In this document: piece by piece, positions 28,638-30,243 of the stretch
Layout of the letters: every line of letters starts with the position of its first letter
How positions within the stretch are numbered: position 1 is the stretch's first letter
Assembly: GCF_004216555.1 (NCBI RefSeq)
Contig: NZ_SGWQ01000002.1
Span: 651,219-715,218 of the forward strand
DNA length: 64,000 bases
Reading direction: 5' to 3'
From: Herbihabitans rhizosphaerae
GTDB taxonomy: Bacteria > Actinomycetota > Actinomycetes > Mycobacteriales > Pseudonocardiaceae
The notes under the pieces: generated by a model
Database searches by the model: none
The model's input: the letters and a program-made list of their open reading frames with translations, nothing else
Told to the model about the DNA's origin: nothing
Translations under genes and position numbers: made by a program

Positions 28638-28661
28638 TCGGCGTTGGGGCTTGGGGTGATC

Positions 28662-28830
28662 GGCGGCGCGGTATTGTGCGGGCCGATTCTCACAAGTCAA
28701 GGGCGCCTTCGGCGTCGGCTTCGCCGACTCGGCCCTGGGGGGCCGAGCCCTGGACTTGTGAGCCTCGATCGGCCCTAACGGCTGGCGCTACGGGCAGGCT
28801 CCGCCTGCCTTTTGCCCGTACCGCGCCGCC
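28662..28830. repeat. Multi-stem foldback (inverted-repeat) element
   Basis: Nested complementary arms: GGCGGCGCGGTA (28662-28673) with 28819-28830, perfect 12 bp; GGGCCGAT (28680-28687) with 28768-28775, perfect 8 bp; CTCACAAGTCAAGGGC (28689-28704) with 28747-28762, 15 of 16; inside, GTCGGC-TTC-GCCGAC. A side hairpin TACGGGCA/TGCCCGTA occupies about 28789-28820. It codes for nothing obvious and fills the gap between the ATPase gene and the HNH gene. It may be a small mobile or dispersed palindromic element, a structured RNA, or a strong terminator; copy number elsewhere would decide. Confidence 0.65.
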
Positions 28831-28901: not shown

Positions 28902-28917
28902 TCGAACACATGTTCGA
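28902..28917 (+). promoter_or_regulatory. LexA/SOS box overlapping the HNH start codon
   Basis: TCGAAC-ACAT-GTTCGA is an exact match to the mycobacterial-type SOS box TCGAAC-N4-GTTCGA. The ATG at 28910 is inside the spacer. TAGGCT (28897-28902) is a -10 element 7 nt before the ATG, so LexA bound here would block initiation of a leaderless message. Confidence 0.85.
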
Positions 28918-30082
28918 CACGACGATGGCGCGGCTGCTCGACGCGCTCGCTGACACCGAGCGGGTGAAGGCACGCGCGGAGGCGGAGCAGATGCGCATCC
29001 TCACCGAGATTCGGCAATTGCGGGCCGGCACCCATCTTGAAGAATTCACTGCCGATGAAGTTGCCGCACACATGCGGTGGTCCACCCGCACCGCGCAAAA
29101 CCGGATCGATGATGCGATGTCGATTGTGACACGCCTGCCCGGGACATTGGCAGCCCTGGAACAGGGTGCCATCGACCGGATCAAAGCCGCCGCGATCAAC
29201 AATGCGACGGCGACACTGTCACCCGAGCACGCTGGCACGGTGGAAACCCGGGTACTCGGGAAAGCCTCCGAGCAGGTGGTGTCCACCCTGCGCGGCCACC
29301 TCCGGGGTGAGGTGGCCGCGATCGACCCCGACGGCGCACAACGCCGGCATCGGGAACGTGCCCAGGGGCGGAAGGTGTGGGTGGTCGCCGAAGAGGACGG
29401 CATGGCCACCCTCTCCTGCTACACCACCGCCGCAGCAGCCGAAGCCTGCTACCGCCGAATCATGGAGTTGGCGCGCAAGGCGAAGACCGAGGGTGATGAG
29501 CGCACCGAGCCCCAGCGGCAGGCCGACGTGTTCCAGGACGCCTTGTGCGGCAAGGATTTTGAGCACGTGCAGGTGGTGTTGACGTTGACCGGCTCAGCGG
29601 AGGAGCCGTCGGTGGTCGAGTTGGACGGGCACGGACCGCTCACCCCAGACGCCGCCACCGACCTGCTGTCGCAAGCGACGGTGATCCGCAAAGTCGCGAC
29701 CACACCCACCAAGAACAACAAGCCACTCAACCGGAAAGCCCGGTGTTACCGGCCGCCACCGGATCTGGTCGAGCATGTGCGGTCACGCGACAAAACCTGC
29801 CGCTTCCCGGGCTGTCACCGCAAAGCCGAACGTTGCGACCTCGACCACACCATCCCCTTCCACCAACACGGTGACACCGTGCCCGAAAACCTGGGACCAC
29901 TATGCCGGCACCACCATCGGTTGAAACAACAACAAGGCTGGACACTCCTGCAACCCGAACCGGGCGTGTTCGTGTGGCGAACCCCCACCGGCACCACCAT
30001 CACCATCGAACCCGACCACGCACAACGACAACAACCCGACCCCGTACCAAGTCCTGGTGGTAGCGATGACCCACCTAACTAA
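28910..30082 (+). CDS. DUF222/13E12-family HNH endonuclease-like protein
   Basis: A 390-residue protein with an N-terminal helical DUF222 region (E-E-F-T-A-D-E-V-A-A-H-M-R-W-S) and a C-terminal HNH domain: C-R-F-P-G-C ... C-D-L-D-H-T-I-P-F ... N-L-G-P-L-C-R-H-H-H-R-L-K. The two C-x-x-C-like pairs bind zinc and the D-H...N...H residues form the nicking centre. This is the repeated 13E12 family of mycobacteria, several copies of which are SOS-regulated; here a perfect SOS box covers the start. Biological role unknown; 13E12 loci are also phage and recombination targets. Confidence 0.9.
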   Translation: MFDTTMARLLDALADTERVKARAEAEQMRILTEIRQLRAGTHLEEFTADEVAAHMRWSTRTAQNRIDDAMSIVTRLPGTLAALEQGAIDRIKAAAINNATATLSPEHAGTVETRVLGKASEQVVSTLRGHLRGEVAAIDPDGAQRRHRERAQGRKVWVVAEEDGMATLSCYTTAAAAEACYRRIMELARKAKTEGDERTEPQRQADVFQDALCGKDFEHVQVVLTLTGSAEEPSVVELDGHGPLTPDAATDLLSQATVIRKVATTPTKNNKPLNRKARCYRPPPDLVEHVRSRDKTCRFPGCHRKAERCDLDHTIPFHQHGDTVPENLGPLCRHHHRLKQQQGWTLLQPEPGVFVWRTPTGTTITIEPDHAQRQQPDPVPSPGGSDDPPN

Positions 30083-30243
30083 CCCAACCACCCACGAAAC
30101 GGGCGTGCCCCGCTTCTCGGTGGCAAGCCGGTCGCCGGAACACCCCCACAACGACCAACCCGCAACCGGCGACCGGCGCGGCAGCACCCCACCCACCCGG
30201 CAAGCTCCACAACAGAGACAAGCCGGCCCTCGTCCAAGCCCCC

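Follow-up and report, generated by a model that had tools for sequence, protein, structure and literature searches.

A dispersed cloverleaf foldback recurrently coupled to DUF222-HNH nuclease genes in actinobacteria

Introduction

Genes of the DUF222-HNH (13E12) family are multi-copy in many actinobacteria, including Mycobacterium tuberculosis, and have no defined function and no known route of spreading. The REP13E12 loci of M. tuberculosis are described as functionally undefined hotspots of gene conversion (PMC13061034), and DIVE counts REP13E12, HNH and DUF222 among repetitive elements (PMC10589994). The 64,000-nucleotide stretch of Herbihabitans rhizosphaerae DNA analysed here (the window) contains one such gene, with a large foldback directly upstream. 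What is a structure of this size doing next to a nuclease gene? The original prediction named three candidates: a non-autonomous mobile element, a recombination target for the neighbouring 13E12 HNH protein, or a structured RNA. The reading preferred here, at a probability of about 0.5, is a mobile foldback module that acts as folded single-stranded DNA and is recurrently coupled to a DUF222-HNH nuclease.

Structure of the foldback

The element spans 169 bp (28662-28830) and forms a whole repeat unit. These borders, first proposed from the window alone, are the same as the repeat boundaries found independently by BLASTN in other full-length genomic copies. The folding z-score is -5.2 on the plus strand and -6.6 on the minus strand, and 0 of 200 shuffles folded as well. 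All the predicted arms are present. The outer P1 arms (28662-28673 and 28819-28830) form a perfect 12-bp inverted repeat, and the P2 arms (28680-28687 and 28768-28775) pair perfectly over 8 bp. The P3 stem has 15 bp with one mismatch, formed by CTCACAAGTCAAGGG (28689-28703) and CCCTGGACTTGTGAG (28748-28762). Its left arm includes a TCAAGGG that is near-invariant over 144 records, a conservation in part imposed by the search patterns. Enclosed by P3 are three side hairpins: hairpin 1, CGCC-TTC-GGCG (28704-28714), hairpin 2, TCGGC-TTC-GCCGA (28715-28727), and hairpin 3 (28728-28747), whose sequence differs among copies with the pairing mostly preserved. A further hairpin, P5, GGCAGGC-TCC-GCCTGCC (28793-28809), is also found in Actinomadura copies. 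All these parts are given on the plus strand. A mechanically called 69-aa ORF with a TTG start crosses the foldback.

The fold is held by compensatory change. Among 22 relatives the covariation score is 0.316, against 0.110 in shuffled alignments, and both sides change in 15 of the 26 pairs. In the true register 88% of cells are paired, compared with 33-41% when the register is slid. Relatives in many genera hold the same fold with different sequence. Rfam gave no match in the window or in 20 relatives, and a known RNA family was rejected.

The adjacent gene

The gene at 28910-30082 (plus strand) encodes 390 amino acids and scores above the Pfam cut-offs for DUF222 (PF02720, 76.4 bits) and HNH (PF01844, 21.9 bits), placing it in the DUF222-HNH (13E12) family. 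The zinc-type HNH residues C297, C302, H313 and C332 are invariant in 30 relatives and H335 is nearly so. The DUF222 N-terminus weakly resembles the DNA-binding domains of ParB and Noc (1vz0, E 0.0087; Foldseek probabilities 0.87 and 0.75). These weak matches are all that a fold search of the protein returned, with no nuclease fold, and among solved structures the only candidates for a homologue are weak ParB/Spo0J-like ones. A defence system was also considered and dropped, PADLOC and NCBIfam giving no match. A LexA/SOS box, TCGAACACATGTTCGA (28902-28917), overlaps the start codon. Beyond the stop codon lies a hairpin (30127-30177) with 12-bp arms at 30127-30138 and 30166-30177.

Copies in the home genome

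The home genome, the sole member of its genus in the sample, has 32 places that match the foldback by BLASTN, most ending exactly at the 12-bp arms. About 30 of the copies are near-identical and almost all lie directly upstream of an HNH gene. Counted by hand, 27 of the 28 copies with right-hand sequence have a DUF222-HNH gene to the right in the same orientation, starting 56-101 bp (usually 56-80 bp) past the last matched base; the lone exception is L011. The element is thus multi-copy, widely conserved and strongly covarying, the opposite of the single-copy, unconserved and non-covarying sequence that the original prediction had named as its own undoing.

The linked proteins fall into three groups with a mutual identity of only 23-37%. 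Group A includes the window gene, and groups B and C are about 36% and 23% identical to its protein. The SOS box lies over the start codon in most of the group A and B copies inspected, sometimes with 1-2 changes; group C units lack it. Both other group A units retain the hairpin past the stop codon. The division into protein groups is not mirrored by the foldbacks. They are 94.2% identical for A against C, 96.6% for A against B (overall range between groups 93.5-96.6%) and 94.8% within C. The foldbacks have therefore either passed between units by exchange or conversion or been acquired separately.

The units also have a common right border. Homology ends near the HNH stop codon in group C, at the stop in group B and about 120 bp past it in group A. 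The right-hand neighbour gene, where present, often begins within about 15 bp of the unit and usually points toward the HNH gene. On the left, an alignment of 30 copies shows a conserved (T)TGGGGTG immediately outside the arm (28652-28659, plus strand), which in group C units is complementary to TTCACCCC beyond the right arm. Several contigs stop shortly past a foldback copy, a sign that short-read assembly breaks at such units.

Several copies depart from this plan. Short variants at L029 and L030 retain just 21 bp on the left and 60 bp on the right, and an HNH gene still follows. Tandem repeats of 22-23 bp lie directly outside the left end of some units (L018:1665-1747; upstream of L011, L022 and L024); being confined to some copies and weak overall, they were rejected as a unit feature. 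Several group C HNH genes (L002, L009, L017, L019, L024) run into foreign sequence at the same codon (about 327) with two alternative continuations, one of which in L009 encodes an IS4-type transposase (PF13006), and this suggests a site-preferring insertion sequence in both orientations. At L023 the last bases of the HNH gene and the end of the converging neighbour form an inverted repeat (GTCGCGTAGAAGTGG / CCACTTCTACGCGAC).

Distribution and linkage in other genomes

A covariance model of the cloverleaf core, built from 22 sequences and giving rough E-values, detected it in 133 of 249 genomes sampled from the family, in 62 of 250 from the order, roughly one in three of these belonging to the same family, and in 14 of 346 from the phylum. 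Because the seed of the model consisted of BLAST hits picked for similarity, these counts are minimum values and do not represent a random sample. As part of the best explanation, it is about an even bet that the family consists of dispersed elements of actinobacteria, some 150-230 bp long, in which the multi-branched (cloverleaf) fold of one DNA strand is itself selected. One genome of another order (G779:C1) has four inverted foldback pairs about 530-550 bp apart (770390, 1024980, 4079306 and 7643659).

The nuclease linkage recurs outside the home genome. Counted by hand, 13 of 14 assessable foldbacks in G006 are linked to a DUF222-HNH gene, and most of the linked genes examined are bracketed by inverted foldbacks on both sides; in Labedaea rhizosphaerae (G029) at least 12 of the 13 foldbacks listed adjoin one. 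In Actinomadura, of another order, the gene accompanies 28 of 30 assessable foldbacks (the exceptions being L245 and L271), always on the right of the foldback: 13 sense, 12 antisense and 3 further away. The foldback there often forms an inverted pair around the gene. Within an Actinomadura unit the two foldbacks are 96.5% identical, against 89.6% otherwise, and 2 of 5040 pairings did as well, a likeness to which species relatedness contributes. Terminal inverted repeats, the classical mark of insertion sequences and MITEs, are thus found at two levels, as the 12-bp arms and as inverted whole foldbacks in G006 and Actinomadura. On a tree of 73 DUF222 proteins the linked label needs 7 changes, of which strongly supported branches force 5; it is scattered over several DUF222 lineages, so linkage arose or was lost several times.

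The link is not universal, and in most genomes sampled the foldback stands alone. Among the other genera of the Actinomadura scan 0 of 49 foldbacks were HNH-linked. Amycolatopsis bartoniae (G241) has 35 foldbacks and Actinokineospora bangkokensis (G202) has 27, both with no DUF222 match, and G213 has 38 foldbacks with two DUF222 matches. In these three genomes the foldbacks are discrete intergenic repeats, some in inverted pairs. The family thus persists in genomes with zero to two DUF222 genes, and the HNH gene cannot be its general mobiliser. An enzyme of the RAYT/IS200 type was rejected as mobiliser, Y1_Tnp (PF01797) being absent from 6 of 7 carrier genomes (G000, G006, G029, G241, G202 and G008). 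In G235 two foldbacks of the same orientation enclose a gene for an IS110-family transposase (L153:3095-4249), which suggests that foldbacks are also targets of IS110 elements.

In the home genome, G029 and G006, the DUF222 groups that lack the foldback are preceded by palindromes of other kinds. Two of these have common flanks, GGCTGCCGCG...CTTGCCAACGG/CTTGCCACCGG, with differing arms. This second palindrome type, flanked by GGCTGCCGCG and CTTGCCA(A/C)CGG, is found upstream of other DUF222 groups in two genera (L038-L043, L315-L325), and in G029 an inverted copy also follows a DUF222 gene. A set of 27 DUF222 genes of the order, which included one from the home genome, had no excess of upstream inverted repeats over background. 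Palindromes are therefore not a general property of the gene family, and a universal foldback upstream of DUF222 genes was rejected for these 27.

Which strand folds

Three lines of evidence indicate that folding is constrained on the minus strand, which is complementary to the downstream HNH gene. First, at positions -8 to -3 of the P3 stem, numbered relative to TCAAGGG, 46 genomes give 32 A.C mismatches against 3 G.T mismatches, each genome-by-position case being counted once. Since a plus-strand A.C reads as G.T or G.U on the other strand, it is the minus strand that tolerates the mismatches. Second, 146 of 161 triloops outside hairpin 1, whose own loop was fixed by the search pattern and left out, read TNC with a closing C-G pair, and every base occurs at N; no plus-strand triloop is GNA. 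Seen from the minus strand, the 146 are C(GNA)G. Third, among 103 elements the minus strand gives the lower folding energy in 90 under RNA parameters and in 85 under DNA parameters.

C(GNA)G is an unusually stable DNA triloop, and GNA triloops are typical of DNA hairpins, not of RNA hairpins. The triloop type together with the minus-strand bias favours folded single-stranded minus-strand DNA, although GNA loops and G.T wobbles alone are also compatible with RNA. Triloops of the same type are used by the hairpins of Streptomyces telomeres (PMC4513846).

The minus strand also has a promoter-like pair, TTGACT-16-CACAAT (28673-28700). In 144 records the spacing from TTGAC to xAxxxT is 17 nt in 72, 16 nt in 13 and 18 nt in 5, with none at 12-15 or 19-22 nt; the TTGA itself was dictated by the search patterns. 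The hexamer pair could act as a promoter, perhaps one that works on folded DNA, or could be no more than a structural constant.

A structured non-coding RNA read from the minus strand, guide or regulatory, with copies spreading together with the nuclease gene, would account for the strong covariation, and the wobble bias would fit G.U pairs in it. HEARO and the omega RNA of IscB offer a precedent as many-copy structured elements directly upstream of an HNH gene. The likeness ends there. IscB omega RNA is not known to lie on the strand opposite to its HNH gene, whereas here the constrained strand is the opposite one; Pfam gives just DUF222 and HNH with no RuvC-type domain; and there is no Rfam match. 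The loops are nearly all GNA-type triloops, and transcription from the minus-strand promoter-like pair would start past most of the fold. An RNA is therefore an unlikely identity for the element.

Relation to known systems

REP/REPIN-RAYT elements (PMC3116915) are, like the foldbacks, dispersed intergenic palindromes, solo or in inverted pairs. The foldback pairs of G213, about 190-210 bp apart, and the foldbacks that bracket a nuclease gene also recall them. The foldback differs in its much larger branched fold and in having DUF222-HNH, not a Y1 HUH enzyme, as its partner.

The REP13E12 loci of mycobacteria (PMC13061034, PMC8151990) are similar in their multi-copy DUF222-HNH genes, gene conversion and SOS-linked HNH genes. 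The difference is the foldback module: none is described for these loci in the available portions of the literature on DUF222, REP13E12 and 13E12, weak evidence of novelty from a search that mostly excluded subscription journals.

The 3' overhang palindromes of Streptomyces telomeres (PMC4513846) and the "rabbit ear" ends of parvoviruses are branched hairpins with GNA-type (GCA) loops on one strand. In paired foldback units the 3' end of the constrained strand should likewise face outward. The foldbacks, in contrast, are internal, dispersed chromosomal repeats that accompany HNH and not Tap/Tpg genes, and membership is not claimed.

Plasmid single-strand initiation sites such as sso and Frpo are large imperfect foldbacks with promoter-like hexamers on the folded strand. 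The present family has both features but is chromosomal. Overall it is apparently an undescribed structured-repeat family of the broad REP or foldback kind, set apart by a new partner protein and by its distinctive fold.

A model for the coupled units

The preferred reading builds on repetition, common borders, covarying stems, the bias towards the minus strand, the association with divergent DUF222-HNH lineages and foldback exchange. The foldback would be a cis-acting recognition or initiation structure, formed when the DNA is single-stranded (nicked, displaced or replicating), and would serve the moving or gene conversion of a small unit. Alone, it behaves like a passenger of the REP or MITE type. 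In several lineages it is coupled to the gene as [foldback]-[DUF222-HNH], and an inverted second foldback often closes the unit. The nuclease of such a unit would cut the structure or its vicinity, after which repair would copy or homogenise the unit. In two-ended units the 3' end of the constrained strand should point outward at both ends, as deduced from their orientation. A cut-and-convert or terminal-structure mechanism, with the HNH nuclease and its weakly supported ParB/Noc-like N-terminal region, is the preferred one. In terms of the roles first proposed, mobile-element-like behaviour is supported and the element may be non-autonomous; the link to the DUF222-HNH gene is genuine, and we infer that the HNH protein recognises the foldback, which may thus be its recombination target.

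By eye, there was no clear target duplication around the home-genome or Actinomadura copies. At the one Actinomadura locus checked an empty site was not found; the unit is common to three species and not polymorphic, so activity there is not recent.

More tentatively, the cloverleaf-bounded units could be a new class of mobile DNA, their ends folding as single-stranded DNA with the 3' end of the folding strand outward. They would be moved or converted by the DUF222-HNH protein with its ParB-like part, the solo foldbacks being non-autonomous derivatives.

Alternatively, the foldback may be a passive REP- or MITE-like palindrome that is a preferred insertion target, beside which DUF222-HNH genes and IS110 elements home. 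The solo copies, the many genomes without DUF222, the transposase between two foldbacks in G235 and the origin of linkage in several DUF222 lineages all fit. On the other hand, nearly all home copies are HNH-linked with no clear pool of empty solo sites there, the units have a common right border near the HNH stop, and left and right foldbacks match within Actinomadura units. A passive target is therefore improbable, to about the same degree as an RNA.

A transcription terminator or intergenic insulator, amplified for regulation, would suit the usually intergenic location and the setting of 36 solo loci (13 convergent, 21 tandem and 1 divergent relative to neighbours). The element, however, contains no terminator-like hairpin with a T-run and is coupled in a fixed way to HNH genes, and its conserved structure goes far beyond a terminator's need, as had been predicted; this role is very unlikely. 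Chance structure is refuted, since palindromes form readily in GC-rich genomes but the z-scores of -5.2 and -6.6, the multiple copies, the covariation and the spread over many genera do not arise in that way.

Implications

A structured-repeat family is present in over half of the sampled genomes of the family and in other orders; it shapes intergenic regions and breaks short-read assemblies. The conserved foldback, coupled to several DUF222-HNH lineages, is a concrete and testable substrate candidate for the nuclease. If the units do constitute a mobile cloverleaf class, this would explain why 13E12/DUF222 genes are multi-copy and prone to conversion in actinobacteria.
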